From positions 1 through 36,736 of the IMG/VR virus record IMGVR_UViG_3300032083_003562: a stretch of DNA of 36,736 nt; one strand, 5' to 3'. This stretch comes from a virus. The translations under genes were made by a program, and so were the position numbers. Position 1 is the stretch's first letter; each line of letters opens with the position of its first letter. This document shows, one piece after another, positions 2,342 through 29,063 of the stretch. The notes under the pieces were generated by a model. The model did no database searches. It was not told the DNA's origin and worked only from the letters and a program-made list of their open reading frames with translations.

Positions 2342-4555
2342 ATGGCAAGAGAGAAAGCACCACCTGGCAATTATTTCAACATACATGGTGATGGTGATCT
2401 AAGCAAGAAAACAACCAAGACATACGTAGAGGTCGTTAATGACCCCAACCAACTGCACCAGTACGCTTCCTACAACACGTTGTTCACGCTGTCGGCACTG
2501 AGTGAGGCCGAGCTCAAGGACACCAGGACACTGGACGGTGTACCACATGACATCATAATCAAGAGTTCAGGCATATCAGATGCCAATGCAGGCAACACAG
2601 GGCAACCACTGAATGCTGAGAACAAAAGGACACTGTACGGTAACAGACAAAGTGAGGACGGCAACGCAAGGATGGCCGCGACACTTGATAAGAGCAGGAA
2701 GACGTACAAGCTGGACCGGGACATGTACTTCCAGACAGTGAACATGAATTCCATACCCGGACTGAACGAGAAGAGAAGATTGACATCGGTGACACAGATA
2801 GACATGACGATCATAGAACCGGCAGGCATAACCCTGTTCGAGAGACTGAGGGCGGCGGCGGCCAACAACAACTATCTTGACCACATTGACGCACCATACT
2901 TACTGACGGTGGAGTTTACGGGATTCGATGAATTTGGGAAGGTTTTGTCGGCGGAGCAAAAGAAAAGCATGAAGAGGGTGATACCCATAAAGCTGACACA
3001 GGTGGAGATGGATGTCAACACGGGAGGGACTGTGTACACGGTCAAGGCAATACCCTACAATGAATTCGCATACGTGGACAGATACAACTGGGTCAAGACA
3101 TCAGGATCATTGTACGGCACGACACTGAACACAGTAGCGGTGGAACTGGAAAATCTACTGAACCAACAGAACAAGGACGATATAGGAAAAATAGAGATAC
3201 CAGACCAGTACGAGATATACATTGACAAATTCTTCAAGTCTGACACTACACAGCTTGATAGGACAAGTTTGGAATCCTCGGCCATGTCATCACAGGCAGT
3301 GGACACGGGAGATGTACCAGTGGACTTCATGAAGATCAACACAGGTAATTCCATAACGAAGATACTGGAAGAGACCATGAAATCACACCCCATGTTCTCC
3401 ACTGATAAATTCGAGGAATGGAAGACCAAGGTGGCAGATCAGTTTGTAGCGGCACAGAATAGAGCAGGTGCCGAAGGCGTGTACGAGACCGCCAAGAGTC
3501 GGCCCAACATGTATTTCGACTACTTCAGGATCAGGTCCAGCCTGATACCGCTGTCACGGTTCGACAACAAGAGACAGACAAACGCCAAGCTGATCAAATT
3601 CGTGGTAGAGCCCTACCGGGTGCATGCCTATTCACTGGCCATACCAGGTGTCAGCACAGGCGATAATTTCAAGAGTTTCGTGTACAAGACCTACAACTAC
3701 ATGTTCACGGGCGACAACGTGGATGTGTTGGATCTCAACATAAACTACAAGTATGCGTACTTCCAGAGCAAACTCAAGGACGTGGATGCATCGGATGGTA
3801 GGCAGAACAAGGTAGAAAAAACAACATCAGAACGAACAGGTGGGATATCAAATCCCAAACCGGTCTACGACGACAACCTTACCTTGAAGAGTGAGGTGAC
3901 AATTACCAAGTCAAGTGGCACAGGGAAAACGGGAAAATCTTTCACACTGGTGGACCAGTTCATAGACGAACTGACACACCCCATGGCGGACATGGTGAAC
4001 ATCAGGATGGAGATACTGGGAGATCCAGCATGGTTGGGACAGTCACAGTTCATACCGGCAAACCCCGAGGAGCAGGCACCAGGTGTCAGCAGTGACAAGG
4101 ACATAGGGTACTGGAGGAACAATCTGGAGTCCATATGGGATTCGAAACGTAGGTGCTACAACCCAGACCTGGCGGAACCGATCGTGATGTTGAATTTCAA
4201 GATGCCGACTGACGTGGATGACAAGCGTGGAGTATACGAGATGGGATCGAACCAGCAGGCCATGTTCTCTGGACTGTACAGGGTGACACAGGTGGAACAC
4301 AGCTTTGACAGTGGGAAATACACCAACGTACTACACCTGACCAGGTTCAACAACCAGGGAGTATACATATCCAGTCCAGCGGCGGAGTACACATCCAGTA
4401 CATACAAAGGGCAAAGCACGATACTGAACAAAAAACAGTACCAGGCATTCCTAGAAACAGAGGGCGGCGCAATCTCAGACGTAATTAACATTGGTAGAAA
4501 GATACAAACTCTCTACGCAGACGCAAAGAGTAAAATAAAAGGATTTTTAACATAA
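2342..4555 (+). CDS. Baseplate hub-like virion structural protein (gp27 position)
   Basis: 737 residues. It lies between the gp53-like gene and the gp5-like spike gene, where a hub component is expected, and marine T4-like phages carry a large structural protein at this place. A beta-rich region at about residues 180-255 contains YLLTVEFTGFDEFGK and IPIKLTQVEMDV. Near the C-terminus (about 640-670) the sequence FSGLYRVTQVEHSFDSGKYT then NVLHLTRF resembles the closing strands of phage hub proteins, which wrap the spike base. T4 gp27 is 391 residues, so this would be an enlarged or fused form; direct homology cannot be shown by eye. The start is an ATG three bases after the previous stop. The last base of its stop codon is the first base of the next start codon (ATAATGA). 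Confidence 0.6.
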   Translation: MAREKAPPGNYFNIHGDGDLSKKTTKTYVEVVNDPNQLHQYASYNTLFTLSALSEAELKDTRTLDGVPHDIIIKSSGISDANAGNTGQPLNAENKRTLYGNRQSEDGNARMAATLDKSRKTYKLDRDMYFQTVNMNSIPGLNEKRRLTSVTQIDMTIIEPAGITLFERLRAAAANNNYLDHIDAPYLLTVEFTGFDEFGKVLSAEQKKSMKRVIPIKLTQVEMDVNTGGTVYTVKAIPYNEFAYVDRYNWVKTSGSLYGTTLNTVAVELENLLNQQNKDDIGKIEIPDQYEIYIDKFFKSDTTQLDRTSLESSAMSSQAVDTGDVPVDFMKINTGNSITKILEETMKSHPMFSTDKFEEWKTKVADQFVAAQNRAGAEGVYETAKSRPNMYFDYFRIRSSLIPLSRFDNKRQTNAKLIKFVVEPYRVHAYSLAIPGVSTGDNFKSFVYKTYNYMFTGDNVDVLDLNINYKYAYFQSKLKDVDASDGRQNKVEKTTSERTGGISNPKPVYDDNLTLKSEVTITKSSGTGKTGKSFTLVDQFIDELTHPMADMVNIRMEILGDPAWLGQSQFIPANPEEQAPGVSSDKDIGYWRNNLESIWDSKRRCYNPDLAEPIVMLNFKMPTDVDDKRGVYEMGSNQQAMFSGLYRVTQVEHSFDSGKYTNVLHLTRFNNQGVYISSPAAEYTSSTYKGQSTILNKKQYQAFLETEGGAISDVINIGRKIQTLYADAKSKIKGFLT

Positions 4556-6342
4556 TGAGTCTACACAACTATTTAAAAGGTGATGCATCAAACGCCAAAG
4601 CCCCGGGCAAAGACCAGAGTTGGTCACGAGAATCCCCAGGACCATACATAGGCATAGTCAAGGGCAACGTGGATCCCACCAGGATGGGTAGGCTGAGGGT
4701 GCTGATACCATCACTGGCACAGACCAGCAACGGAACGGAACAACAACTGATTACGTGTGAATATCTTTCTCCTTTCTATGGAGCCAAGGGAACGAGACAC
4801 AATATTCCGGGATCAACGGAATACAGCGACAGCCAACACTCATACGGATTCTGGGCAGTGCCACCTGATCTAGAGACCAGTGTATTGGTCATATTCGCAG
4901 AGGGAAAAATGAACCAGGCCTTCTGGATAGGTTGCGTACAGGATCCCTACACCAATCACATGATACCAGGGATAGCCTCCAGCACCAACACCTACGATGC
5001 ATTAGACGGAACATTCGAAGGTGCAGATGCAGGGTTCCAGAAAGACAAGACATCTACATACGGCTCAAAAAATGTACCCTCAGGAGAAATGAACAGGACA
5101 TCTCCAAATGCCTTACCGAACAACAACTATGATGCAATTCCAAAACCCATACACCCGTTTGCTGAAATACTTCGAGAACAGGGTTTGAGTGCAGACGACA
5201 CAAGGGGTAACACGTCAAGTTCTGCAAGACGTGAATCTCCAAGCCAGGTATTTGGTATCAGCACACCGGGTAGAAAAAATTTAGATACGACCAAACGACA
5301 GGTGGGTGCGAAAGATTCCGGAGCAACAGATCATGTTGTAAGGAAATCAGGACACACATTTGTCATGGACGACGGAGACGTCAATGGAGACAACCAGCTG
5401 ACAAGGATAAGGACGGCATCGGGACACCAGATACTAATGCACGACACGGAAGGAACGGTTTACATAGCCAACGGTTCGGGCAAGGCATTCATAGAGATGG
5501 AACAGGACGGAACGATCAGTGTGTTCTCAGATGCAGGAATGAATTTAAGGAGTAAACAGGACTTCAATATACACTCTGACATAAACATCAACTTCCATGC
5601 AAGGGGCAGTTTGAATTTCACGGCAGAACAGAATGTCAATCTTAACGCAGAAGGCTATGTTCACACAATGGGAGAAAAAGGAATACTGAACAGTTCACAG
5701 AAAGGTTCTGTGAGGAACTTTGGCAGGGACGGGATAACATCTTTCACAGATGGGCCACAACTGCACGGAGCAAAAGGCAGAATCGATCTAGCAGGATCTG
5801 AGGTCCATTTCAACTCTGTGCCGGCACGTGAAACATGGGGACCTGGATGGTTGAAACCAGATCATTCCAACGTTGGCATCAAGGTAACCGGAGGTCCTGG
5901 AGGACTAATAGACATAGACAGCGAGACACCATTGCAGGGTGGCAAGCCCAACAAGGTAGAGAACAAGACCACGGTGTCGGACTTCGTGACCCATGAACCA
6001 TACACCAGGACCAGCAGTACCGCCTTGAAGAAAACATACATCAACGAAGCGATGGCGGATATCAAGTTAAACAACCCCGACTTTTCAGCACAGGAGTTGC
6101 AGGACATCAAAACACAACTGCTTAAAAAGTCTAGTATCAGTGCTGTGTCAAACCAGCTAGAAAAAATAGTGAAACTAAATGACAAGGTGAAGCTACCCCT
6201 TGCAAAATTAACGGATCTCAAAAATAAAGCGGAAAATTTAGAAAGCACGATCAAGAACATGGCAACAGGTTTCATACAAGGAAAGATAACAGAATATAAA
6301 ACAGCGGCGATCAGTGCGGTGAGGAGTTTCTTTAGATTTTAG
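4555..6342 (+). CDS. gp5: Baseplate central spike protein gp5-like, without a visible lysozyme domain
   Basis: 595 residues. T4 gp5 forms the membrane-piercing spike: OB-fold, lysozyme domain, then triple-stranded beta-helix. Here the OB-fold is clear at about residues 28-150 (GPYIGIVKGNVDPTRMGRLR, later FWAVPPDLETSVLVIFAEG). A beta-helix-like region at about 265-400 has many short alternating strands, for example AFIEMEQDGTISVFSDAGMN and NINFHARGSLNFTAEQNVNL. A charged helical tail occupies about 525-595. Between the OB-fold and the helix (about 160-255) the sequence is polar and low in complexity, and I find nothing resembling the phage lysozyme catalytic E...D/C...T arrangement. Its start overlaps the previous stop by one base. 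The gp5-type assignment is firm; loss of lysozyme is an inference from inspection. Confidence 0.85.
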   Translation: MSLHNYLKGDASNAKAPGKDQSWSRESPGPYIGIVKGNVDPTRMGRLRVLIPSLAQTSNGTEQQLITCEYLSPFYGAKGTRHNIPGSTEYSDSQHSYGFWAVPPDLETSVLVIFAEGKMNQAFWIGCVQDPYTNHMIPGIASSTNTYDALDGTFEGADAGFQKDKTSTYGSKNVPSGEMNRTSPNALPNNNYDAIPKPIHPFAEILREQGLSADDTRGNTSSSARRESPSQVFGISTPGRKNLDTTKRQVGAKDSGATDHVVRKSGHTFVMDDGDVNGDNQLTRIRTASGHQILMHDTEGTVYIANGSGKAFIEMEQDGTISVFSDAGMNLRSKQDFNIHSDININFHARGSLNFTAEQNVNLNAEGYVHTMGEKGILNSSQKGSVRNFGRDGITSFTDGPQLHGAKGRIDLAGSEVHFNSVPARETWGPGWLKPDHSNVGIKVTGGPGGLIDIDSETPLQGGKPNKVENKTTVSDFVTHEPYTRTSSTALKKTYINEAMADIKLNNPDFSAQELQDIKTQLLKKSSISAVSNQLEKIVKLNDKVKLPLAKLTDLKNKAENLESTIKNMATGFIQGKITEYKTAAISAVRSFFRF

Positions 6343-6358: not shown

Positions 6359-6772
6359 ATGGCATACGGAGATTCAGGTTCAGGAGACATATCAAACAAG
6401 ACAGTGACCTTCAAAGGGTTCAGTTCACGTGCGGAACAGAAGAACTTCAAACTGTACGACTTCGAAGTTGCCAAGCAGGATCTCATAAACAGGTTAAGCA
6501 TACGTAAGGGCGAGAGGGTGGAGAATCCAGAGTTCGGCACTATAATATACGATGCCATATTCGAACCATTCACAGATGCACTGAAGGACGACATTATAGA
6601 GGACATCACAGCTAACCTAAACGCAGATCCACGTATATCCACAGAGGAGATACTGGTGTCTGAGGCCGACAAGGGCATAGCAATACAGGCGACTATCACG
6701 TATGTTCCCCTGAACATCACTGAGAAACTGAGATTCAACTTTGATGAGAACTCACTGTTGCGCCTATCTTAA
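6359..6772 (+). CDS. gp25: Baseplate wedge protein gp25
   Basis: 137 residues, essentially the length of T4 gp25 (132). gp25 has a lysozyme-like fold without enzyme activity and links the wedge to the tail sheath. The family core is plain at about residues 48-72: RKGERVENPEFGTIIYDAIF followed by EPF, where most relatives have EPR. Next comes the helix DDIIEDITANL, then the closing strands. The EPR motif has been described as important for the core bundle, so F in place of R is a small departure. Ile codons are strikingly skewed: I count 11 ATA, 3 ATC and 1 ATT of 15. It lies between gp5 and gp6 as in other T4-like marine phages and has its own candidate late promoter. Confidence 0.9.
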   Translation: MAYGDSGSGDISNKTVTFKGFSSRAEQKNFKLYDFEVAKQDLINRLSIRKGERVENPEFGTIIYDAIFEPFTDALKDDIIEDITANLNADPRISTEEILVSEADKGIAIQATITYVPLNITEKLRFNFDENSLLRLS

Positions 6773-6824: not shown

Positions 6825-9800
6825 ATGGCCACAACAGACAGACAGAACAGATTACTAGTTGCCGAGGATTGGAGAAAGATCTACCAGTCATTCCAACAGG
6901 CAGATTTCAAGAGTTACGACTTCGAGACACTGCGAAGGACCATGGTTGCATACCTTCGTGAGAACTACCCAGATGATTTCAATGACTTCGTGGAAAGTTC
7001 TGAGTATGTTGCACTGATCGATCTGATCGCCTACATAGCACAGGCACTCTCGTTCAGGGTGGACCTAAACGCAAGGGAGAACTTCCTGGAAACAGCAGAA
7101 AGAAGAAACTCCGTGCTGAGATTGGCGAGACTGATCAACTACAATGCAAAGAGAAATCTACCGGCAACAGGACTTTTGAAGATTGATGCAATATCAACAA
7201 CACAGGATGTCGCAGATTCAACAGGAACGAATCTAGCCAACAGCACGATCATTTGGAATGACAGTGCAAACTCAAATTACAGAGAACAGTTCACAGCAAT
7301 ACTGAATGCGGCAAATCAAACAGGACAACTATTTGGAAATCCAAGAGAGTCAAACAAGATTGGCGGCATTGACACAGAAGTTTATACATTAAGTTCAAAT
7401 CAACTAGATCTACCAATATTTTCTTTCAACACTGGTGTTGGTGGAATCAACAGGCAGTTCGAGATAGTGCCAAGCACGATTAACAATTCAGAATCAATAT
7501 ACGAGTCATCACCGGTGCCAGGAACAGGGCTGACGTACACCTACAGATCGGATGGATCAGGAGACAGTTCCAACAACACAGGATTCTTCTTCCTGTTCAA
7601 ACAGGGATCGATGCAACAGATTAGTTTTTCGGTGGACACTGCCATAACAAATTATGTCAAGAGCTTAAACATCGCGAACATCAATGACTCAGATGTATGG
7701 TTGTACAAGCTAGACCAGTTCGGTCAGCTGGCTGAAGAGTGGACCAAGGTACCATCACTGTCAGGGAACAATGCAATTTACAACTCACTTTCAAAAACAG
7801 AGCGGAACACATACAATGTAGTGACGAAGGCGGACGACTCGATCGACCTTGTTTTCGGCGATGGTAACTTCTCAAACTTACCATTGGGTGCATTTAGAAC
7901 ATATCACAGGGCCAGTGACAATGCCAAGTTTGCAATACAACCAGCGGACATGCAGAATGTGACACTGAATGTGCCATACACGGATGCCAATGGTGCACAA
8001 CAGAGTTTGACGCTAACATTGGGACTGAAGCAATCAGTTTATAACAGTGCCGCAACAGAATCAAATGCTTCGATAAAAGATAAAGCAGGACAAGTTTATT
8101 ATTCTCAGAACAGGATGATCACTGCCGAGGACTACCAAGTGGTACCTCTGTCAGCATCGCAGGAGATAGTAAAGGTCAGGTCAGTGAACAGGTCAGCATC
8201 GGGCATATCAAGGGCCAAGGAGGTTTTAGATCCCACGGGTGCATACTCCAACGTGAACGTGTTCGCGGATGACGGAATAGTGTACAGGGAAGAAAGCACA
8301 CAGCAGTTCACATTCTCGTTCAACAACAGGAGCGAGATACAGTCAACTATTGATGTATCAGTAGAAGCAAAATTAAAGGAAGCATATGCCAGACAGTTCT
8401 ACTATCTGAAGTATGCTACCAAGGATGTTAGTAATCTGAGTGCAACATGGAACTCCACTACAACATCAACAAACACCAATACAGGATATTTCACATCAGG
8501 TGGTGCATTGGTCGTTGGAGACTCTGCAACATCAAATTTGAAATATGCAAAAGTAGGTGCACTGATCAAATTCACATCACCGGACACGAGGGAATTTTTA
8601 AACAACACGCTAGTCACAGCAGGAACAGACAATGCAGAGGACAGGGCATGGGCCAAGATCGGTGCAGTTGTGTTGGATGGTGCAAATGGCGGTGTAGGAA
8701 ATCTAGAGGACGGGACAGGACCAGTAACACTTACCGATGTGATACCAAATGGATCTGTAATCAATGCAGTGATACCTGCGTTCACTACATCGTTCTCAGC
8801 AACATTTGAAAAAGACATCGTTGACAGGATTGAAGCATACGAGGAATTTGGTATTAGGTACGACCAGGACGCAGGAGAATGGAAAGTTATCACAAGCACA
8901 AACCTGAGTGACAGCGCCGTGTTCGGCACAGCAGGAGCAGGCTCGACAGCAGGCACGAATCTGGACGCCAGCTGGTGGTTCAAATTCACCAATGATGGAA
9001 ACACATACACGGTTGTGTATAGAAAGCTGGATTACATATTTGAATCTGAATCACAGAACAAGTTCTACTATGATGCACAGGAAAAAATTTACGACTACAA
9101 GACAGGTAAGAGTGTCAAAGACACTGTTAAGATTTTAAAAACAAATGACATATTGTCAACAGGCAACAGCATAGGTTATCCAATCACATGGCAGGTTGTG
9201 GACACGGTCACAGAGGCAGATGGCTTCCAGGACAACAGGAAGATCAAGGTCGGCTTCTTTGATGATGACGATGACGGAGTTGTTGACAATCCGGAAATCT
9301 TTGATATATTCGTTGAGCCGGACACTTCGGTTTCTACTAAATTTGTGTTCTTTGAGAAATACATATCTTACGACACCATAGAGAGATACAGATTCTATGC
9401 CGCAACAAATTTTGTTGTGACAGAGAACGAGACAGATATAAACGTAAACAGCACTGTGTACACAGACGGGCAGTTGTTTTATTTCTATGACAGTGCCGAG
9501 GACGTGATCAAGAAATACAGCACAACCACTAACACACTGACAACAACAACAGATTACATAGCAAGGAGAGGCAGGAGTTCTATCAGCTTCCAGTACAAGC
9601 ACAACGCAGGGCAGGAGACTAGGATTGATCCCAGTGTGTCAAACATCGTGGATGTCTACATGCTAGAAAGAACTTACGATAACCTTTACAGAATATGGTT
9701 ACAAGATGGCGGAGTAAAACCAGACGCTTCAACTTCGGACCAGCTGAGGATATCTTACTCTGCAACATTGGACAAACTAAAATCATTATCAGATCAGGTG

Positions 9801-10313
9801 GTGTATCATCCAGTGAAATACAGGATACTGTTTGGATCAAATGCAGATGAGGAATTACAAGCAACTTTCAAGGTTGTTAAAAATTTAAAAACGAATGTCA
9901 CAGACGCAGTGATCAGAACAAGAGTCATTGCCGCAATAAATGAATTCTTCGCACTGGACAACTGGGATTTCGGTGACAGTTTTTACTACACAGAATTAGC
10001 CGCTTACATACACAATCAGTTGGCACCGGATCTGCTTACAGCAGTTATTGTGCCAAATCAAACAGGACAGAGTTTTGGATCTCTGTTCCAGATCAATTCC
10101 GCGGCAGACGAGATTTTTATCAGTGGGGCCACCGTTGATGATGTTTCAATAATAACTGCACTGGGAGCCAACCAATTGGCGGCATCCGGTACAGTGGTTA
10201 CATCAACATCAACTGCCACAACAAACACCACAACAGGATCAGCAGTGTCAGGCTCTACTACATCAGGTTCGGGATCAAGTTCAAGTTCCGGCAGTAGTGG
10301 ATCAGGATACTAA
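6825..10313 (+). CDS. gp6: Baseplate wedge protein gp6
   Basis: 1162 residues. gp6 is the main wedge protein that forms the inner baseplate ring with gp7 and gp53. The N-terminal signature is unmistakable for the marine T4-like version: DFKSYDFETLRRTMVAYLRE, then EYVALIDLIAYIAQALSFRV and the helix RENFLETAERRNSVLRLARL (residues about 28-105). A J-like core follows, with MITAEDYQVVPLSASQEIVK at about 428-447. T4 gp6 is 660 residues; the extra length is in the middle (about 520-900) and in a Ser/Thr/Gly-rich tail (about 1118-1162) ending SGSGY. Residues 813-824 read DDDDDGVVDNPE, a perfect EF-hand-type calcium loop. The stop overlaps the next start (TAATG). Confidence 0.88.
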   Translation: MATTDRQNRLLVAEDWRKIYQSFQQADFKSYDFETLRRTMVAYLRENYPDDFNDFVESSEYVALIDLIAYIAQALSFRVDLNARENFLETAERRNSVLRLARLINYNAKRNLPATGLLKIDAISTTQDVADSTGTNLANSTIIWNDSANSNYREQFTAILNAANQTGQLFGNPRESNKIGGIDTEVYTLSSNQLDLPIFSFNTGVGGINRQFEIVPSTINNSESIYESSPVPGTGLTYTYRSDGSGDSSNNTGFFFLFKQGSMQQISFSVDTAITNYVKSLNIANINDSDVWLYKLDQFGQLAEEWTKVPSLSGNNAIYNSLSKTERNTYNVVTKADDSIDLVFGDGNFSNLPLGAFRTYHRASDNAKFAIQPADMQNVTLNVPYTDANGAQQSLTLTLGLKQSVYNSAATESNASIKDKAGQVYYSQNRMITAEDYQVVPLSASQEIVKVRSVNRSASGISRAKEVLDPTGAYSNVNVFADDGIVYREESTQQFTFSFNNRSEIQSTIDVSVEAKLKEAYARQFYYLKYATKDVSNLSATWNSTTTSTNTNTGYFTSGGALVVGDSATSNLKYAKVGALIKFTSPDTREFLNNTLVTAGTDNAEDRAWAKIGAVVLDGANGGVGNLEDGTGPVTLTDVIPNGSVINAVIPAFTTSFSATFEKDIVDRIEAYEEFGIRYDQDAGEWKVITSTNLSDSAVFGTAGAGSTAGTNLDASWWFKFTNDGNTYTVVYRKLDYIFESESQNKFYYDAQEKIYDYKTGKSVKDTVKILKTNDILSTGNSIGYPITWQVVDTVTEADGFQDNRKIKVGFFDDDDDGVVDNPEIFDIFVEPDTSVSTKFVFFEKYISYDTIERYRFYAATNFVVTENETDINVNSTVYTDGQLFYFYDSAEDVIKKYSTTTNTLTTTTDYIARRGRSSISFQYKHNAGQETRIDPSVSNIVDVYMLERTYDNLYRIWLQDGGVKPDASTSDQLRISYSATLDKLKSLSDQVVYHPVKYRILFGSNADEELQATFKVVKNLKTNVTDAVIRTRVIAAINEFFALDNWDFGDSFYYTELAAYIHNQLAPDLLTAVIVPNQTGQSFGSLFQINSAADEIFISGATVDDVSIITALGANQLAASGTVVTSTSTATTNTTTGSAVSGSTTSGSGSSSSSGSSGSGY

Positions 10314-13300
10314 TGGCTGACAATAATACAAACTCATTAACAAATAACGAAGTTGTCAAACAAGGTGACAACGAGTACAGGAGAACTGTACAGCACCTAC
10401 CTGCATTCTACAGAACAGACGCCAACCAAAGATTCCTATCAAGCACACTAGATCCCTTAGTGCAGAAAGGATCATTGGAAAGACTTGATGGATTCATAGG
10501 CAGACAGGATGCCTACACCAGATTAGTAACGGACAGATACCTTACAGCCACCGACAGGAACAGGATGGCGTATCAGTTGGAACCTACAGTGACATACACA
10601 GACAGGGACACTACATCAGTTAATCCCGAGGATCAGGTCAAGTTCACGGGAACATACGATGACTACATAAATCAGATCAAGTATTTTGGAGGCAAGGTGG
10701 ACAACCATGACAGGCTCAACAAGGAAACTGTATACGGTTGGAACCCAGCGATAGATTATGACAAACTGATCAATTACAGGGAATACTTCTGGATCCCAAA
10801 CGGACCCAACGCAATAGAGATAGACTCCATAGGACCATCGGCCGTGGCAGAATACAATGTGAGCAACTGGCCCCTAGACGGAAGTTCAGCAAGGGCATGG
10901 AATTTCCCACACAGAGAAGATGAGAGAAATCCTATTATAAAACTCTACAGGGGAAACACATACAAATTTAATGTAAACGCAAAAGGACACCCTTTCTGGA
11001 TTATGACAGAGCCATACAAGAGCATGGTAGCCGAGGACGGCTCAACGTCCACGGTACACTCGACCGGGGTCACAAACAATGGTGCTGATTATGGAACAGT
11101 TACATTTACAGTTCCGCTGACAGGCGGTCCAGACACTTTATACTATCAGTGCGGTAATCACGATGCCATGTATGGTATATTGCAAATCAGGGCAGTCAAC
11201 ACACTGTCAAAAATTGATCCCGAGAATGACATAGTGGGTGTTAAGAATTACAGCTTGAGAACATTGGATCTTTCCAATGGTATGAAAGTCAAATTTACAT
11301 CAAGCGAACTGGCAACAGGTTCAGCATATCTAAACAAGGAGTACTACGTAGAGGGGGTTGGTGAATCAATAACACTTACTGACGTGGAGAATCTTATCAC
11401 ACCGGCAAGTTATGCTACGGAAAGCACCATAGCTTACGATACAGTTGAGTATGATTCAAGACCCTATGCCAAAGCATACTACACGCCTGACAACAAGGAT
11501 TACATAACAATCAAGAGAGATTCACGTGATCAGAATGCATGGTCCAGATACAACAGGTGGTTCCACAAATCGGTCATAGAGGAAACAGCAAGGATAACAG
11601 GGTTCACAGCGAACTTGGATGAGACCGACAGGGCCAAGAGACCCATTATTGAATTCGATTCGGGACTTGCACTTTACAATCACGGAACGGTGGCAAAACT
11701 ATCTGTGACATTGTATGACACAGTGACAACTGATGCCTTTAGTGATGTTGTGCTTCAGACTGGTTACATAGTTGATGGTATCGCCCTTACAGAGGGAATG
11801 AGAGTAATATTTGCCGCGGACACTGATCCCACAGTAAACGGTAGGATATACAAAGTCAGCTTTGCAACAGCAGGAGACAGCTCACAGGTCATCTCACTAA
11901 CTGAAGAATCAGACGGAGTACCAGCCGACAAGGACAGCATTTTTGTAGAATTTGGAACGGCCAATCAAGGCAAAACCTTATATTACAACAATGCTACTAA
12001 GGCCTGGACAGAATCACAGCAGAAAACTGGAGTAAATCAACAGCCATTGTTTGGCATGTGGGACGAAACGCACACCAGCTTTGATGACGAGACAACATAT
12101 CCCAACTCCTCATTCACAGGAGCCAAGGTGTTTGAATTCGCAACGTCAGATACAGCGACAACAGACACGGTGCTGGGCATAAAGGTAAAATACAACACCA
12201 TCAACAATGTTGGTGATATTGTATTTGATTCAGACCATACATCAGGAACGTTCACTTACAAATCCGGATCAACTACTGTGACCAAGAAATTAGCAGAAGG
12301 ACACCTTCACTACACAACAGGCAGGGAAACGCACAATTCAAAGAGTGCCTGGATCAAGAGGACCAATGAGAGCAAACAGAGGACAGTGAGGACCTTTACT
12401 GCAGACGAAACGGAGAAACAGTTGTTCCCGATTGACTTCTACAAGAATTCAGCCTCACTAACAGACCTGGAAGTATCAGTGTCAGTGAACGGTGCAAGGA
12501 AAACACGGTCAACGGATTACACACTAGTTGACGGGACAACAAACAGATACGTCAAATTTGTTAATGAATTGGCAGTTAATGATCAAATTAGGATTGCTGG
12601 TCACAGCAGTGCTGACAAGGTGGCGAATAAAGGAATTTACGAAGTACCAGAAAGTTTATCTACAAACAGTTTGAATCAACAGTTGGGAACATTCACGTTT
12701 GGACAGATACTTGGACATGTTAGGGACATATTTGACAAGAACCAAGATGTGACAGGATCAATACCAGGCACATCAAACCTCAGAGACAAACCAGATGCGA
12801 GACTCAAGGGTGGTAGCATACACCAACACGAAGCACCATTGCTTCCGGCAGTGTTTGGTCTGATTGATCAGGATACTAACGTGATAACAGCGATGGACTA
12901 TGCCAGCCAGGAATATGAAAAATGGTACAACGCATTCCTAACACACGCAACAGGAACAGCATATGAGGGAGTTGCCGCAGACAGGGTTGACGAGATCATA
13001 ACATCAATTACACCAGGAAGGAACAGCACTTTCCCATTCTTTTATGAGGACATGTTAGGTTGGGGAGAAAATGTTTCAACTAGGACTTACACAGTGCTTG
13101 GATCGTCCCAAGTAGATTACGCACTTGACTCACAACACAATATAACAACGCCTAGCAACAGGGCAGTCTATGTCTATCTTAATGACGTGCAATTAATATT
13201 AGGCACAGACTACACGTTCAGCACAACAGACGACAGCGTGACAATATCGGCCACACTTGCGGAAGGAGACATTGTCAAGATCAAGGATTACACAGATACA

Positions 13301-16300
13301 ACCGGCAGTTATATGCCACCAAGTCCGACTAAACTTGGAATGTATCCAAAATCGAAACCAGAGTCCTTCACAGACACAACTTATCTAACTGACACGACAG
13401 TGATTAGGAGGCATGATGGATCTATCATAAAAGCATATGGAGACGAGAGGGATGATCTAATACTTGAATTGGAGAAAAGAATCTACAACAATCTTAAGAC
13501 AGCATACGATCCAGCCTTGATCGACATACATGATGTGACGCCAAGTGCATTCACTTCAACAGAATATACACTGCAAGAAATTAATGATGTTGCGGCAACT
13601 GATTTCTACACATGGTCAGGCAGGAACAATGTGCAGTACATCAATAACACTACATTCTCCGAAGGTTCACCTTTCACTTACAACTATGCGAGAAGCACTG
13701 ACAGATTGAACCTTCAGACTCTTCCAGGTCACTGGAGGGGGATATACAACTACTTCTATGACACAGATGCACCTCATGTGAGACCATGGGAGATGCTAGG
13801 ACATTCAGAGAAGCCAACGGACTGGGAAACACTTTATGGTCCAGCACCATACACATCGGCCAATGATGTTCTTTGGGACGCCATTGCAACAGAACCAGGC
13901 AGGTATGGTAAACCAGAAATCAAAACTTACCTACCAGTTGATGCATCAGGTAACCTATTAGATCCGCTAGCGGCAGGGCTTATTCAAAACTTTGACATAC
14001 CGGGCAGGCAGGCTTCTTGGAAATTTGGAGACTGGGGACCAGCAGAAACATCATGGAGAAGGTCAAGTGCATATCCTTTCACCGTATTAAAGACACTGGC
14101 ACTAACAAAACCGGCTAAGTTCTTTTCAAACCTATTTGATAATTCGAGACTATCAACGAACACAGCAGGTAATCAGATTGACACAGATACAGGCATCAGG
14201 AAGACACTGAGCACGTCCAAGTACCACTTGGAAACTGTAACTGACAATACCACTGGGGTCACAACAAGGTATATGACAGCAGGATATCAACCATTTGTGG
14301 TCAACTATCTAATATCACGTGATTTGGATGTATCTACATTCTATTATAAGAAGATGAAAAATTTAACTGTGCAGTTAGCATACAAACTGGGTGGATTCAC
14401 AGACAAGGAAAACATTAAAATTTTGACAGATTCTGTGTCTCCGGGATCAACATCAGGCTCAAAATTCATACCAGATGAAAACTACAAAATACTTTTTAGG
14501 ACATCAAACCCTGTTGAAAGTTTTGAATATTCTGGTGTGTTGATAGAAAAGAACACAGACACCAGCACAGACGGATCAACGATATTAGGTGGATACAAGA
14601 TACTGGGATATTCAACAACAAAACCATTTTTTAAATACAACTATCCTGTCAAGACAACAACACATTCAGCAGTCTCAGTAGAGGGAGCGACATCAGTCAA
14701 ACGATACAATGCCTTCCAGGAGGCTACACAGACCATACCTTACGGATATGTGTTCAACACGATACAGGATGTGACAGACTTCTTGTTTGGATACGGACAC
14801 TGGTTGGAAGATCAAGGATTTAAATTCAACAAGTATTCAAACGAATTAAAGGAAACGCTGAACTGGGCGAACGCGGTCAGGGAATTCCTGTTCTGGACAA
14901 CACAGGAGTGGGCACCGGGAAGTGCAGTCACAGTTTCACCTGCCGCTGATGGTTTTGAACTGGACACAGACAACTCGATTGTTGGCAAGTTGAGGAATCT
15001 TGCAGGAGACTATTCATTATTAGACGCAGGTGGAAGGAAGATAGACATCAGGGAGATATCAACGAAACGTATTGGTAAGACATTTGATCTGTCTATTAAG
15101 TCAGACGATATAGGTCTTTACAACATAGCACTGAACACAGTGCAGAAGGAACAAATACTATTGTTTGACAACAGCACAGTTTTCTCAGATATAATATATG
15201 ATCCGTACACGGGATTTAGACAACAGAGATTGAAATTAGTCGGTTGGAAGACCGCAGGTTGGAACGGAGACTACTACGCACCTGGTTTCGTGTTCGACGC
15301 GGCGCAGGTAACATACTGGACTGCCAACACGGACTACAGGATAGGTGACACAGTCGAGTACCAAGGCAAGTTCTATGTGGCATTAATTAATCATAACTCA
15401 ACAGTAAAGTTTGAAAAATCCAGCTGGACACTTAAAGCAGACAAACCAGCACCGCAGTTGATTCCAAACTTTGATTACAAGATCTCACAGTTCAATGATT
15501 TCTACAATCTAGAGACCAACAACTTTGATGAGTCACAACAGAAACTGGCACAGAGACTGATAGGATACCAGTCAAGGGATTATCTTGAGAATCTATTTGT
15601 CAATGATGTTTCACAGTACAAGTTCTACCAAGGTTACATCAGGGAGAAGGGCACACAGAATGCCATAGACAGCATATTGAAAGCCCAATACGAGGGAGAA
15701 GACATCAATCTGGAATTACATCCAGAATGGATGATAAGGACAGGAAGATTTGGAAACACGGATTCTGTGGAGAACATACAAATTATATTAACAGACAAAA
15801 ATATACTTGCAGATCCACAAAGTATAGAACTGTTTGACACATCAAACGATACAAGAGAGTATTCGAGATCATTTTATGTCGCCAAAGAGGATTTGTATTA
15901 CAAACCGGTGGAGTACACGGCCTCAACTACTTTTGGAAGATTGGACTACACAAAGGAAGGAGTGGACAGGGACCATGCACAGGTATACAAGACAGCAGGG
16001 TATCCGCAGTTGGACCAGGTACAGCACACTGCCTTTGACATAACTGATCTTTCTAACCTAGACATGAATCGCATAACGGCAAATGATCTTGTATGGGTAG
16101 CGAACAAATCCAACAAAGATTGGGACGTGTTCAGGATAACTAGTGCCAGACTCAAGATAGCACAGCTAAGGTCAATAAATGATGTAACACAGCTAGAAAT
16201 AACATTCACAGACTCACACGGACTGACAGGAAACACATCAACGAAACTTGCAGACTACTTTGGGATATCAAATAGTCAGGAACCAACACTGAACGGTGTG

Positions 16301-19300
16301 TACCAAGTGTCCAGTGTTACAGATCACAAGACTGTGATAATAGACTACGAAGGCAACACAGGATTCATACCATCACTTGAAGATGGGTCAACAGCAGATA
16401 GCTACGGAAATGTTTACAAGTTCGTGTCAGTGAGATTATCCTCAATGAACAACGTAAATGATCTGATCAACTATGCCGACTACAATGACAAGGATGATGC
16501 CATAGAAAAACCTGGCGACAAGGTTTACGCCGATGTGGATGCCTCGGGACTGTGGCAGGTGTACGAAAAGCAAGATCCATACACAACAAAAACACTTTTA
16601 TCATCAGATGTTTCAACATCGGACCAGAATTTTGGATCTCAGATAGTGGCAAGGTCAGACGGCAGGACACTTGTTGTTGGAGCCCCGGGAAAATCTCAAG
16701 GAGAAGTACACTTCCTGTTCAGGAGAGAAGCAGTGGCAGGAACAACGTTCCAGACAAATTCAGTGCAAACAATGACAGAGAATGATGACACTACTAGCAA
16801 ATTAGGATCGTCACTGTCAATGAGCACAGACGAGAACTTCGTTGTAGCAGGTGCACCTTTCACGAACACGATAAGTTCGGACGGTAGCACAAGATACACA
16901 GACAATGGATTAATAAAAATTTACATATGGGATCCAAGCACATTCAAGTATAGTTTGCTCAACACAATCACGCCACCGGAAGATGGATCAACAACAGATT
17001 CTAGCCAGGCTCAAAGATTTGGACAATCTCACAAGATTTCAGAACCGGGTGCAAGTTCGGTCAGAGACACAGCGACAAAATATCTATTCGTGGGTGCTCC
17101 TGGACACGACAATGACACAGGACGTGTGTACATGTATGAATGGGGTATTGGAGCAGATGGGTCGACCTACGACACATGGACTCAAAACTTAACGTTAGAG
17201 AGTGCTGATCCAGGTAGAGGTAAACAATTTGGCCATGTCATGGAAGCCAATGACAATGGTGACATACTGGCAGTGGGCTCGATAGCACCAGGACAGGCAG
17301 GCAAGGTAGAAATATACATAAGAAATTCACAGGCAAATGACGGTAGCACGGATCATTCGTTCGCTCTTGCACAGACACTTACAGGCACGAGTGCAGACGG
17401 TTCATCATTGAACACAGCTTTTGGAGAGTCTATGTCGATGAGCAAAGACGGAACTGTTTTGATAATAGGTGCCCCGGGTGTTGCTGGTGAAGATTCAACG
17501 ACACAGCCAGATGCCGGTGCGGTGTACTACTACAAGTGGAATGCTGACGGATCAACTAACACATATACACTACAACAAATATTACTTGCACCAGATTTAA
17601 AAACAAACATGAAGTTTGGATCAAGTGTTACTATGGATCCATCGGCAACAAGATTGGTGATAGGTGCAGAACAGGCATCGACTCCTAGGGAGATGAAAAT
17701 TGACTTGGGTGAGACCACTTTTGATCTACAGGACACAACGATAGGTGATCTAAACACAGGATCAGGTGCGGCATACACAGCAACCATGTACAACTCACAT
17801 TTTGTGATAGATGACAAGCTACTGACTGACAATGTAACAGGGGCTGACGACTTTGGAAAAGGTGTTTGTGTAATAGGTAACACTGTGTTTGTTGGAGCAC
17901 CGGAGGATGACGGGAATGTTGCTCTTGCCAACGACGGAACAGTGGCAATATTTGATCTGACAGTGTCTGGCGAGTATGCATGGAAGAACATAGCATCAGA
18001 AACAGCACTGATTGACATAGAAAAACTTGGGCAGGTTTTTGAATTTGACAACAGATCCAAACAGATCAGAGACCATTACGATCTTTATGATCCCATCAAG
18101 GGAAGGATACTAGGTGTCGCTGACAGAGAGATCAACATCAAGACGCCATGGGATCCGGCAGTGTACAACACAGGTCCAAATGCCAACACCAAGACACCAT
18201 GGGCACAGGAACACATAGGAGAAGTATGGTGGGATCTATCAAAAGTCAAATGGACATGGTATGAACAGGGAGATCAAGAATTCAAAACAAACAACTGGGG
18301 CAGAATCTTCCCAGGATCCAGCATAGACATATACGAGTGGACGGAATCAACCGTACTGCCAGACCTCTGGGTGACGAGATCAAAAACACAACAAGGTGTC
18401 TCGGAAGGTATATCAGGAACACCACTGAATCCCGACAATTCACAGTACACGGTGATACAGAAATACAGTTCCAAACTAGACACTTTTGTGAATTACTATT
18501 ATTACTGGGTAAGAAATAAAATAACAGTGCCAACAAACAGCGTGGTCACTAGGAAGAACTCAACAGCATTCGTTAAAAACTTGATAGAAAATCCTAAGAG
18601 ATCACAATTAAAATACTATTCGGTGTCAGACACCAACAAACTTATACTGAACAACACCGACAAACTTTCCGGCCAAGACATAGTGTTGAATATTGACTGC
18701 AGGACCAACACATTTGATGGTGATGCACACTCTGTGTGGAAACTGGCCAGAGAAGGCGACAAAGATTATAGACCAGGCACAAAGATAGAAACACGTTGGT
18801 GGGATTCTCTTGTAGGACAGAATGAATCAGGAGATCAAGTGCCAGATATAAGTCTTCCAATCAATGAGAGGTACGGAAACAGCACAAGACCAAGGCAGAG
18901 TTGGTATGTGGACAGATTCACAGCACTAAAAGAAATCATAGACTACTCTAACACTGTGTTAAAGAAATATCAATTGGTTGGAACGTTCAATCTTACAAAT
19001 CTAGATTCCAAGGAACCAGAACCGACTGCTGAGAGTTTGGAATGGGACACGACCATAGACACATATGCGGAACTGACGTACATTGACACAAGAGACCTAT
19101 CAGGAACAGTAAAATTCCTAGTCAAGGCGGATGAGACAGCCAACGGATACTGGGCGATATACACATGGGATGGTACGGAATTCTCAAGGACACGATTACA
19201 GACTTACAACACATCATCGTATTGGAGTTACACAGACTGGTATGGAACAGATCCTGCTGTACATGGAATGCTTCATAGCGAAAATACTAAAATTGACAAA

Positions 19301-22300
19301 CAGGTAACATACGAGTACGAACTAGATGCTCTCACACTTGCAGTAGGCAAGCATGTCAAGGTCACTAGTGCTGACACGGGTGGATGGAAACTGTTCATGA
19401 AGACTGCGACAGGTTACACAAACGTGGGAACAGAGAACGGCACGATAAGATTATCAACAAAACTCTATGACTACACACAGGACGCCACAGGGTTCGCAGG
19501 TGAGGACACGTTTGACGACAACTTCTTTGATCAGGAACCAGCACAGGAAACAAGGAAAGTTCTAACTGCACTGAGGGATGACTTGTTCATTAATGATCTT
19601 GCTGTGGAATACAACACACTGTTCTTCACAGGATTGAGGAAAGTGCTGGCTGAACAAACCTATGTTGACTGGATGTTCAAAACATCATTCATCAATGCCA
19701 AAAACTCTGTGAGACCATTGGACCAAAGGAAGTCATACACAACAGGAACAGACAATTGGATAGAAAGTTACATAAACGAAGTGAAACCTTTCCATACAAA
19801 ATTGAGAGAATACAGATTAGGACACACAGGTACTGACACACAGGACGGTTTATTCACAGACTTCGACAGTCCAACATTCTATGACGCAACAACAGGCAAG
19901 ATCAGAGGATTGAATGTGGACAAGGACACAGACAAACTTACAGAATACCCATGGCAGATGTGGAATGACTACCATAAGAAATATGTTTCATCAATAACCA
20001 TCAGTAAGGGTGGATCAGGCTACACTAAAACTCCAACAGTCACGGTAGTGGGAGGAACAGTAATGGCAACAGGCCCATTCCAAATACTGGCAACAAGTTC
20101 TTTTGGATCAACATCGGGCAGTTATGGTTACTTCTATCCATTGTTCAGCAGTCAAACACAGGCAGAAATCTATGACACACAGAATGGGGGTGCAGGAACA
20201 ACAAACATTTATAGATTTGATGGGTACACAGGCACGTACTATGGACCAAGCACGAGCATCACAGCCCAATCAACGATATCAGGTGCATTCAAGATGTACA
20301 CAACACCTAACACGACAGCGGCAACTGCCACAGCAACAGTTGTAGATGGTGTAGTCACTAAGATCACCTTGACAGGTACTGGTGCAAACTACACTACAAC
20401 ACCCATGGTAGTGATAACTGGAGGTGCAGATGACGGGTCAACACCAACAGACACGGCGAAAGCATATGCAAATCTGAACAACGACTTGGTTAGAGATATT
20501 ACTACAACAGTGAAATTTGACAGGGTGTCAAGCACATCTAGTGTGGTTGATTGGACAGCATCTACTAGCTATGAGTACAACCAACTGATCAGACACAAAA
20601 ATGAATTATACAAAACAACAAAAGCCTTTACTGCAACAACAAATTTCAATGACAACGCAGGAGATTTATATAAAGTGTACGGTGATGAAACAGGACTGAC
20701 AGCGGCGGACAGGACAAAAGGTTTCTACACACCAGGAACAGGGATGGCAGGCAATGAACTGTCTCAGGTAATGTCGGGTGTTGACTACGGCGGAACTATG
20801 GTAACAGGATTGTTGTTCTCGCAAGAAGCTGGTTGGGACAAGGCAGGTTGGTATGATTTCCCATGGGACAACTACGGTGAGTCCAGAGTCAAAGCCTTCA
20901 GTGCTACTGGAGCCTCAGCAAACTTTGTTATTACTCCGGCACCGGCTGTTAGTGACGTGTACCAAGTATACGTAACATCAGGTGACAGCACGAGGAAAAA
21001 ATTAAACGATATATTCAGGGGTGACGGATCTACTACATCTTTTGTGCTGTCAAGCATGCCAGATGCAGGTGCATTGGTAGAGTTCATACCTTTTGATGAT
21101 GACGGTGTACTGACTCCCACAGACGACAGGACCCTTGACTCGATAATCAAAGGTGGACTTTTTGGATCTGCGATAGGATCAGCACCAAGTGACATATTGC
21201 TAGAAGGTGATGATTTCATATCACCAGAAACCAGCTATGCTCCAGAAGAGACTGTTCCAGGACAGCTATTTGATGCACTAGATATCAAAGTTTACACATC
21301 TCCTGAGTCAGGAGTGCCATTCATTTCAAGCAAGAATCACAGAGGTGATGGAAGTACTTTGACATTTAGCATTGGCGACTACCCTGGAACACTAGGTTCT
21401 GTCATGGTTTCAGTAAATGGAGCAACACAGAAAGTTTCATTAGATGGTTCAACTGCAGGAGATTATTCAGTTGACGTTGCAAACAAGACAATAACATTTT
21501 TAAGCACGGCGCCAGCGGCAAACAGTGTGGTAGCGACAAGAGTTTTTGCAATAAGTGGAGAGAATTACAGGGTACTGGACCAATACACAGGAGATGGAAG
21601 CACAGTGGCATTCACTACATCGACTAGGGGTGAGTTTAATTTGGATTCAACTGTGTCTGACATTTACATAACCATAGACGGTGTGCCAACCACAGCATTC
21701 ACAACAACTACAACTGCCAACACAATTACAGTAACATTTAGTTCTGCACCGCTGGCAGATGCATTTGTTCAGATTGCAGGGTTCAACAAGTCTACAACAA
21801 GCACAAGAAGTTTTGCCAGCGTAAGAAATGAAAAAATTACATATGATGGATCAACAAACAGATACACTTTAACTTATCCACCAGGATCCATAGGTCCACT
21901 GTCAGGATTAACAATAATCGAATTGAATGGCAAAGTTCTGAGAGGACCAGATGTAAGTTACTACACGGGTGACGGAAGCACTTACAGTTTCAATCCAGTG
22001 GCCGGATTGGGTGACGATTCAACGATAGATCCAGCCAAGGTTATCACAAGTGCCTCACAAATACAAGTACACATAAATGGTGTATTACAGGAATTGAACA
22101 CAGACTATGTTGTTAACCTAGGAGCATATGATAAAACTGCAGACGTAACCACAACACTTGCTGACACAAGCACACTGACTGCAGACACTATAGGTTCTCC
22201 AGAAAGGATAGAACTTGTAAATCCAGCATCAAGCACAGACTTGGTAGCAATAACAACTTTAACCGATAACCAATATTACAATGAAGGGTCGGACATAATT

Positions 22301-26953: not shown

Positions 26954-28405
26954 ATGCCTACAGTAATTAAAAAATTCCAATACTCAGGAACACTAAACCA
27001 AGTAAGTATACCAGCAGGCACAACTACCGTAGACATGTATCTATGGGGAGGTGGCGGAGCTGGTGGCGGAGCAGACGCAGGAGGTAGCGGTGGCTCAGGC
27101 ACAGCAGGACATTATGTTTCAAAAACAAGTTATTCACTAACATCCAACGTCGGTGACGTTCTCGAAGTAGCAGTTGGTGGTGGTGCCGCAGGTGGTGGTG
27201 CCGGCGGAAGCGCCAATGGTGGTGCTAACGGAAAAGGCAAGACAGGATTCTCAGGTGGTAACGGTGGTGCTTCAGGCCCACAGGGTTCATCAGGAGCAGG
27301 TGGTGGAGGTGGTGGAGCCACAACAGTATTCATAGATGGTTCAGCAGTCGCAACAGCAGGCGGTGGCGGCGGTGGAGGAGGAGCAGGTAGGACCTCTAAC
27401 GGGACATCAGGTATCAGCACAAATTCAGCAACAGCACGATCCCCAGGCACACTGGGAGAGAACGGTGCGGGCCACTCCGGAGACGGTGGTGGTGGAGGAG
27501 CCGGAGGTGGAGGAGCCGATGGCGGTACAGGCGGAAACGGTGGATCTAATGACACTGGAGGCACAGGTGGTAGAGCAGGATCAGACCTAGTACCATCATC
27601 AGGATCTAGTTCAGCGGGTTCAGGTGTTACACCAGGAGTGGTTACTCTAGAGATAGGTGGAGTTCAATATTATGATTCAGGAGTAGCAGTAGGATCATCC
27701 GGCAGTTCAGGATCAGCAGGAAATGGATTAGCAGTACTTGTGTTTAATGTCGGAGTACAGGCCAGTACCAAGATCAATGGAACATGGACAGATATATCAA
27801 ACATATATACAAAAATTTCAGGGGTATGGACGGAAATCACAGCAGGATATGTGAAAGTGTCAGGAGCATGGAAGGCACTATTCAACTCAGGAATAACTTT
27901 TACACAAACAGCCGCAGGGTTTGGTGATTCGTCAGGTGGAGCAACTTCAGGCTCGGGTGGATCAGGACCAAGTGGTGGTTGTTTCATAGCAGGAACAATG
28001 ATATCAATGAACGATGGTTCGTTGAAACCGGTTGAGCAAGTGGACATAGGTGACACAGTTTCAGTTGGTGGCAAGGTGTTCGCAACAGGTAAGTTCTTGA
28101 TAGACAACTTGTATGACTACGACGGAATCCAAGTATCAGGAACGCACATGGTCAAAGAAGATGGCGCATGGACAAGAGTTGAGGACAGTAGACTAGGAGT
28201 ATCACTGGGTGATGACGAAGTGATCGTGTACGTGTTCGGTAGCGAAAACAGAAGAATTATTATAAACAACACAGAATTCACAGATTACTTCGAATTAAGT
28301 GAACAGCAAGAACTAACCAACCACGGTGAACAATTTTTTAGTAATTGGCAAGATCATGATAGACAGATACATGATAAAAATGTTAATATACTGAATGCTC
28401 GATAA
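26954..28405 (+). CDS. Glycine-rich adhesin-like protein ending in a Hint (Hedgehog/intein-type) domain
   Basis: 483 residues. The start IKKFQYSGTLNQVSIPAGTT followed by VDMYLWGGGGAGGG (residues about 5-40) is the usual opening of glycine-rich phage adhesins. Glycine tracts fill about 35-220, interrupted by TTVFIDGSAVATAG, and could form packed polyglycine-II helices. A short repeat, INGTWTDISNIYTKISGVWT then EITAGYVKVSGAWKALFNSG, covers about 275-315. After the linker SSGGATSGSGGSGPSGG comes C343: CFIAGTMISMNDGSLKPVEQ then VDIGDTV, the Hint block A signature, and S395-G-T-H398 as block B. A C-terminal strand region VIVYVFGSENRRIIINNTEF follows. There is no homing endonuclease and no C-terminal extein to splice, so N-terminal cleavage or ester/thioester transfer is more likely than splicing. 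Overlaps the next gene by 11 bases. Confidence 0.8.
   Translation: MPTVIKKFQYSGTLNQVSIPAGTTTVDMYLWGGGGAGGGADAGGSGGSGTAGHYVSKTSYSLTSNVGDVLEVAVGGGAAGGGAGGSANGGANGKGKTGFSGGNGGASGPQGSSGAGGGGGGATTVFIDGSAVATAGGGGGGGGAGRTSNGTSGISTNSATARSPGTLGENGAGHSGDGGGGGAGGGGADGGTGGNGGSNDTGGTGGRAGSDLVPSSGSSSAGSGVTPGVVTLEIGGVQYYDSGVAVGSSGSSGSAGNGLAVLVFNVGVQASTKINGTWTDISNIYTKISGVWTEITAGYVKVSGAWKALFNSGITFTQTAAGFGDSSGGATSGSGGSGPSGGCFIAGTMISMNDGSLKPVEQVDIGDTVSVGGKVFATGKFLIDNLYDYDGIQVSGTHMVKEDGAWTRVEDSRLGVSLGDDEVIVYVFGSENRRIIINNTEFTDYFELSEQQELTNHGEQFFSNWQDHDRQIHDKNVNILNAR
27041..27570 (+). repeat. Glycine-tract region of the adhesin-like gene
   Basis: A dense run of GGN triplets encodes Gly tracts up to nine residues long with Ala, Ser and Asn interruptions. 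On the DNA level this is a GGTGGT/GGAGGA-rich region, a natural place for slippage and variation in tract length. The opposite strand is open and proline-rich only because it mirrors these codons. Confidence 0.8.
27980..28340 (+). other. Hint domain at the C-terminus of the adhesin-like protein
   Basis: Residues 343 to about 463. Block A is C343-F-I-A-G-T with DGSLKPVEQVDIGDTV; this Cys would make the N-S acyl shift. Block B is S395-G-T-H398 in place of the usual T-x-x-H. The size, about 120 residues, fits a minimal Hint domain. The C-terminal end (ILNAR) has no conserved His-Asn plus nucleophile, so the second half of intein splicing is not expected. Confidence 0.75.
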
Positions 28406-29063
28406 ATCATATTACCACGGACAGCAAGGCGAATGTTTCCTGAGACTAGAAAAACATTTCGCAGAGATCAAACACGAGTTTGACTCACAACCCAACAAGA
28501 CATTCTTAGATCCAGAAGACTTCTCAGATAGCGTAAGGGGACTTCCGGATGACTTTGATGACAAGTCAGGTGACTATGTGCATGGACAGTGGAAAGCACT
28601 GGGAATACAGTCAGGAGAACACGAGGGACAATCGTTCAATGACTATCCCATGCTGTATTCGATACTGAGAAAATTCCCATACAAGACCAATGTGGCAATA
28701 ATGACTGTTGGACCAGACACAAAGATTGGTAATCATACGGACAACGAAGGTGGTTGGAGATACCAGATGTGTTTGGATGACGGAGGAGGAGACCAGAGTG
28801 GTATGCACGTGATGAACTTAGAAACCCGTAAACAGGAACTGATGACTTGGAAGACAGGTGAAGCGTTCGTTTTCCAACCAGATATACAGGTACACAACGG
28901 TTTTAACAACAATCCAGGCGAGAGAACCACGTTATTAATTGACTTTTTCAAAGAATCACTGTACACTAAAGATAAGTTCGAACAATATTACCAACACTAT
29001 TCGGAATGTTTCGAAGGGTTGGAAAATCTAGTGGATGTGTATGAATCAAGGAAACAAAAATAA
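28395..29063 (+). CDS. Aspartyl/asparaginyl hydroxylase-like 2OG-Fe(II) oxygenase, copy 1
   Basis: 222 residues. Enzymes of this group use Fe(II) and 2-oxoglutarate to hydroxylate a protein or small-molecule substrate. The double-stranded beta-helix core shows the expected facial triad H114-x-D116 (IGNHTDNEGG) and H167 (QVHNGFNN), with R177 ten residues later (GERTTLLIDF) for 2-oxoglutarate. The strand MTVGPDTKIGNH before the HxD and the turn WKTGEAFVFQPDIQVHN are typical of the AspH-like subgroup. The length is normal for a stand-alone catalytic domain. The start lies inside the end of the Hint-bearing gene (11-base overlap), so the two are co-transcribed and perhaps coupled; no Shine-Dalgarno is evident. 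The substrate is unknown; the neighbouring adhesin is an attractive but untested candidate. Confidence 0.8.
   Translation: MLDKSYYHGQQGECFLRLEKHFAEIKHEFDSQPNKTFLDPEDFSDSVRGLPDDFDDKSGDYVHGQWKALGIQSGEHEGQSFNDYPMLYSILRKFPYKTNVAIMTVGPDTKIGNHTDNEGGWRYQMCLDDGGGDQSGMHVMNLETRKQELMTWKTGEAFVFQPDIQVHNGFNNNPGERTTLLIDFFKESLYTKDKFEQYYQHYSECFEGLENLVDVYESRKQK

Follow-up and report, generated by a model that had tools for sequence, protein, structure and literature searches.

Type 1 copper cupredoxins, among them amicyanin, plastocyanin, pseudoazurin, rusticyanin, and the copper domain of the nitrite reductase of Hyphomicrobium denitrificans (2dv6), are alike in fold and in the order and spacing of their His, Cys, His, and Met ligands. 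Phage tails are not usually regarded as copper proteins. Iron has been proposed to sit in tail fibers that carry HxH motifs, where it forms part of a Trojan horse idea (PMC11705849). Cupredoxin folds can also change their role, as in the ephrins, which lost copper and are now binding domains (PMC6485061).

Here we describe a predicted cupredoxin domain in a giant virion protein of an uncultured, probably marine phage. The window, meaning the whole stretch of DNA that was analyzed, is the complete virus record of 36,736 bases. The domain has the fold and the ligand order and spacing of the type 1 copper proteins but differs from them in sitting inside a virion protein without a known redox partner, and its copper is putative. 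It resembles the HxH fibers in that a metal is proposed in the tails of marine phages, whereas the metal, the fold, and the ligands differ; residues 168 to 301 contain no HxH motif. The ephrin ectodomain is a metal-free, protein-binding cupredoxin, a state that may also hold for the ligand-free sister lineages described below; it belongs, however, to an animal protein, and the window's domain retains its ligands.

Among phage protein families, the C-terminal domain of phrog_677, the cyanophage “baseplate wedge tail fiber protein connector” (gp9-like), is homologous to the domain in the window and has the same four ligands. The phrog_677 profile matched the window at 4e-17 over profile positions 327 to 409 of 412, a relationship at the domain level only, and 66 of 66 aligned members matched the ligand set. 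The phrog_677 copies lie in another parent protein and at another position, while the window's copy is part of a giant wedge-type protein. A plant family, PF25489 (At5g54830-like), gave a weak match along most of the domain (best member, 2.4e-6), with the window's domain itself at 21 bits, under the curated cutoff of 27 bits. PF00127 (Copper-bind) had no match to the window's domain at an E value of 0.1 and matched 11 of 66 relatives weakly (best, 0.0011).

Genomic context of the giant protein

The giant open reading frame (ORF) follows genes for a hub protein with an OB domain, a gp25-like protein, and a gp6-like protein (Table 1), and its start overlaps the final base of the gp6-like ORF. 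It matched phrog_10938, “virion structural protein,” at 1,126 bits. Orthologs were found in the jumbo phages PA5oct, Atu_ph07, the RaK2 group, SCTP-2, XaC1, and Vibrio 2.275.O, and the PA5oct record carries an ESI-MS/MS note on the ortholog and on the adjoining gp6-like protein. The initial annotation had called the parent protein baseplate-type, a description that the gene order and the PA5oct note support. Its position in the virion is deduced from gene order and names, and gene order alone, namely its place after gp25 and gp6, suggests the role of T4 gp7; a sequence search against the PDB returned no useful match.

TABLE 1 Coordinates of the giant protein, its upstream neighbors, and the cupredoxin domain with its predicted ligands
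Feature	Position	Strand	Basis or remark
gp5-like baseplate hub/spike protein	4555..6342	+	phrog_13211 and PF04717 OB domain
gp25-like baseplate wedge subunit	6359..6772	+	phrog_261 and phrog_43
gp6-like baseplate wedge subunit	6825..10313	+	phrog_10646, 962 bits; phrog_219; weak PF21379
Giant virion protein, parent of the cupredoxin domain	10313..23299	+	4,328 aa; baseplate-wedge position
Cupredoxin domain (predicted), residues about 168-301	10814..11215	+	AlphaFold2, Foldseek, VIA-align
H226, predicted first His ligand	10988..10990	+	Invariant in the window's clade; codon changes synonymous only
C280, predicted Cys ligand, end of strand 275-280	11150..11152	+	Conservation, predicted structure
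H283, predicted second His ligand	11159..11161	+	Conservation
M286, predicted axial Met ligand	11168..11170	+	80/81 close relatives (other, Gln); 77/79 diverse copies

The giant protein contains just three cysteines (280, 2519, and 2796). Residues 1669 to 1699 and about 2419 to 2455 hold a CBM5/12-type carbohydrate-binding module and FG-GAP repeats, both of the adhesion type. Elsewhere in the window, 26954..28405 encodes a glycine-rich protein whose C-terminal part (CFIAGTMISMNDGSLKPVEQVDIGDTV...) looked Hint/intein-like by eye and matched nothing in Pfam at 0.01. The tail genes are followed directly by 28395..29063, which encodes an aspartyl/asparaginyl beta-hydroxylase-type protein (PF05118, 1.5e-10), a possible modifier of virion proteins.

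Predicted fold and ligand geometry

An AlphaFold2 model of the domain, built from 66 diverse rows, had a pLDDT of 88 and a pTM of 0.81. Rusticyanin was the top Foldseek match in the PDB (6e-4). Next came pseudoazurin carrying an engineered amicyanin loop, then amicyanin and plastocyanin, and further down the list some immunoglobulin-like folds; the TM-scores of these single-domain matches were modest (0.41 to 0.46). By VIA-align, the domain model had a Z of 8.7 to 2dv6 and superposed on rusticyanin (1a3z) at 2.2 Å over 85 residues. The model together with the Foldseek and VIA-align matches identifies the domain as a Greek-key beta-sandwich of the cupredoxin type.

A second AlphaFold2 model, covering residues 1 to 465 (pLDDT 78), gave a Z of 8.8 to 2dv6, the copper nitrite reductase (2.2 Å, 100 residues), and cupredoxin-fold proteins made up 50 of the 50 Foldseek PDB matches listed (best, 1e-5). 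The cupredoxin part thus filled the list, and no fold was identified for the remainder of the protein in this search. At the sequence level, the family profile retrieved mostly copper proteins from the PDB at nonsignificant scores, among which 6hbe and 9cck aligned in register at C, H, and M, and a search with the single domain sequence returned nothing useful.

In the predicted secondary structure, H226 immediately precedes strand 228-231, strand 275-280 ends with C280, and the loop that leads into strand 287-293 holds H283 and M286. In the model, this is the canonical placement for type 1 copper sites, which speaks against a geometry that would keep the ligands from meeting. The order His ... 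Cys-x(2-4)-His-x(2-4)-Met, with Cys at a strand end and His and Met in the next loop, is likewise present. All four ligands stand exactly where the initial annotation had read them, with TLYYQ directly before the Cys. It had placed the domain at 10895-11215, which covers the larger part; because VIA-align spans residues 168 to 301, we extend the domain by about 27 residues at the N terminus, to a start near residue 168, not 195.

The loop C-x2-H-x2-M is of amicyanin length. Pro follows the first His ligand in the window's domain; in plastocyanin and azurin, Asn does. The two residues in C-x2-H fall within the 2 to 4 that separate Cys and His in blue and red cupredoxins (PMC4059628). Given the composition of the giant protein, about 0.0004 C-x2-H-x2-M motifs would be expected in it, and H-x(40-65)-C-x2-H-x2-M was found in 0 of 5,000 shuffles of it. 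The shuffles, the fold search, and the conservation reported next rule out a chance match of the ligand motif.

Conservation of the ligands in the window's clade

In the close relatives and the window together (80 + 1), the two His and the Cys are invariant and the Met is present in 80 of 81, the remaining sequence having Gln. The scan for close relatives, like later ones, had the Cys-His stretch among its search patterns. Because those patterns included the Cys and the second His, we repeated the conservation test with patterns taken from outside the domain, from residue 304 onward. All four ligands were kept in 79 of the 79 readable loci fetched in this way (78 by pattern and L334 by reading), which rules out that the conservation is an artifact of the search patterns. 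At the DNA level, across 67 unique sequences, the codons of the two His and the Cys vary synonymously only (for H226, 53 CAT and 14 CAC), and third codon positions differ at 52% of sites on average.

The ligands are also kept beyond the giant proteins. Among 79 nonredundant copies from phages and bacteria, fetched with a pattern that contained the Cys and the second His and not the first His or the Met, 77 carry all four ligands, one differs in having Gln in place of Met, and the last is a decayed copy in L215. In neither sample did the homologs show the lack of conservation that would have told against the site. The predicted structure, the fold searches, the sample chosen independently of the ligands, and the synonymous-only change of the His and Cys codons uphold the initial reading of a cupredoxin fold with an intact type 1 ligand set.

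Conservation of four residues cannot distinguish copper from another soft metal. Zinc, for example, fits Cys/His sites, and the site might take such a metal or form a metal-free thiol/His cluster. Yet the nearly invariant axial Met, replaced once by Gln as in stellacyanin, is the type 1 copper pattern (PMC4059628), the nearest folds are copper proteins, and the domain has C280 as its one Cys, with no second Cys for a disulfide. We therefore regard another metal, or none, as very unlikely.

Distribution of the module

The module occurs in cyanophage gp9-like connectors, tail fibers, and wedge proteins, including those of the cultured cyanophages P-SSM2, Bellamy, and S-ShM2. The initial annotation had called such a domain unexpected in a tail. 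This wording is too strong, since the module is common in tail proteins of marine T4-like phages. In the open-access papers searched, we found no report of a cupredoxin in a virion (weak evidence of absence). In six cultured jumbo-phage orthologs, the corresponding segment is without a cupredoxin domain. A tree of the domains, weakly resolved, kept those of the giant proteins largely separate from the others.

Several further architectures occur. In L215 (1835-2188 and 3962-4258), a single protein combines the decayed module copy (H,S,T,L) with an intact copy. Four alphaproteobacterial proteins (L172, L173, L175, and L176) have two tandem cupredoxin-type modules, both ligand intact, of which the first contains a long insert. 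The giant phage protein is also encoded on contigs assigned to Pelagibacter and Betaproteobacteria TMED41 bins (L166, L167, and L168), which probably represent phage sequence within these bacterial bins.

The recurrence of the module in many tail-fiber and connector proteins would suit a part in host recognition, in which the copper-loaded domain is bound by copper-uptake or copper-binding proteins of the host surface or presents an adhesin face that includes the metal, a copper analog of the iron Trojan horse. The iron proposed in tail fibers (PMC11705849) and the turn of cupredoxin folds into binding domains in ephrins (PMC6485061) favor it as well. However, the ligands are far more constant than a usual receptor-binding surface, receptors are not usually bound by wedge proteins, and the same site recurs in phage and bacterial proteins with unrelated partners. 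On balance, we consider host recognition unlikely.

The module is also found in bacteria, among them short proteins that read from their sequences as secreted or lipoprotein-like (L177, L179, and L180). Such members, and the fact that electron transfer is the usual job of cupredoxins, could speak for a true electron-transfer protein that was taken over from bacteria with its activity preserved. Against this, the domain is buried in a structural protein of 4,328 aa, and other lineages lose the site. A place in an electron-transfer chain is further disfavored because it needs a partner, and no redox partner gene was recognized within the window. We think it highly improbable that the domain transfers electrons in this way.

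Sister lineages without the site

Ligand conservation does not extend to the whole family of the giant protein. A deep scan, with an alignment led by Atu_ph07 and patterns outside the domain, collected 80 deep relatives, whose ligand states were read from alignment columns. Fifty have the domain with His-Cys-His-Met, 27 have the fold in the same place with an incomplete set, and 3, Atu_ph07 itself among them, have no domain. At the 27 loci, the Cys is replaced by Ser, Asn, or Asp, the second His is gone, the Met is nearly always gone, and Met, Glu, Tyr, or Asn often stands in for the first His; a few of the 27 matches are incomplete or atypical (e.g., L369). These sister groups of uncultured phages, with the site lost, rule out the view that the ligands are always conserved. 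In the upstream part of the giant protein across L354-L433, several of the 27 metal-free loci have long inserts within the domain.

A tree built from the downstream core unites the metal-type sequences in a single group of 52 rows (SH-aLRT, 100), including one partial loss (L408), and two changes suffice to separate metal-type from metal-free. Many independent losses of the site are therefore unsupported, and the difference is largely one deep event. Because bacterial and cyanophage copies have the site, the simpler assumption is that the metal-free lineages lost it. That the fold is kept where the site is lost implies that the fold can serve without metal and that, in the window's clade, the site is maintained by selection.

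Three of the four long contigs with a metal-free giant protein hold a ligand-intact copy elsewhere (G003, G004, and G006). These extra copies (L438, L439, and L441) lie in another, shorter protein. No further copper-type copy was found in 15 metal-type contigs, and no intact copy was found in 12 shorter contigs with a metal-free domain, nearly all of them fragments. Relocation of the copper site to another protein in the metal-free lineages is a lead from few near-complete genomes.

The metal-free lineages also bear on a role as a trigger, in which the domain would be changed by reduction, uptake, or loss of its copper at the surface of the host and would help to fire or lock the baseplate. 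The axial Met and the other ligands are all held, the parent is a baseplate protein, and type 1 sites are redox active as a class (PMC4059628). Nevertheless, sister lineages function with the fold and without the site, the jumbo-phage orthologs lack the domain, and no partner or relay was seen. Cupredoxin sites are also typically rigid, and a large conformational switch is unlikely. A trigger of this kind seems to us rather improbable. The same doubt attaches to a virion-borne blue-copper center with a redox function. Its sites would tune or gate infection by being reduced, or by taking up or losing copper, when the virion meets the host surface, and some lineages would have given up the metal and kept the fold.

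Discussion

Judging from its sequence and predicted structure, the domain probably binds copper and does not act within an electron-transfer chain. The explanation we favor, to which we give about an even chance, is that it is a copper-binding, metal-stabilized structural or interaction module of the baseplate, with a type 1 site of amicyanin length, near the N terminus of a giant wedge-type protein. Each subunit would carry one copper ion at H226, C280, H283, and M286; the ion would stiffen the beta-sandwich, and the beta-sandwich would serve as the structural or interaction module. We infer occupancy of the site by copper, exposure of the domain in the virion, and a stabilizing role for the metal.

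The parent protein exists without the fold in the jumbo-phage orthologs, and the fold exists without the full ligand set in the 27 deep relatives; these metal-free sister lineages favor a structural role for the fold as such. In the window's clade, the retention of every ligand, the axial Met included, fits a metal that adds stability or sets a surface in a cysteine-poor virion protein. If stabilization were the only role, more frequent loss within the clade might be expected than the single partial loss in L408.

For a predicted type 1 copper-type cupredoxin domain in a phage baseplate protein, the nearest idea under discussion is iron in HxH tail fibers (PMC11705849). If the sites are occupied, virions would be carriers of protein-bound copper, and a second metal would join iron in the Trojan horse discussion. 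The metal-type and metal-free lineages of one protein amount to a natural experiment on what the metal contributes to a baseplate, and the presence of the module in the cultured cyanophages makes it experimentally accessible now.
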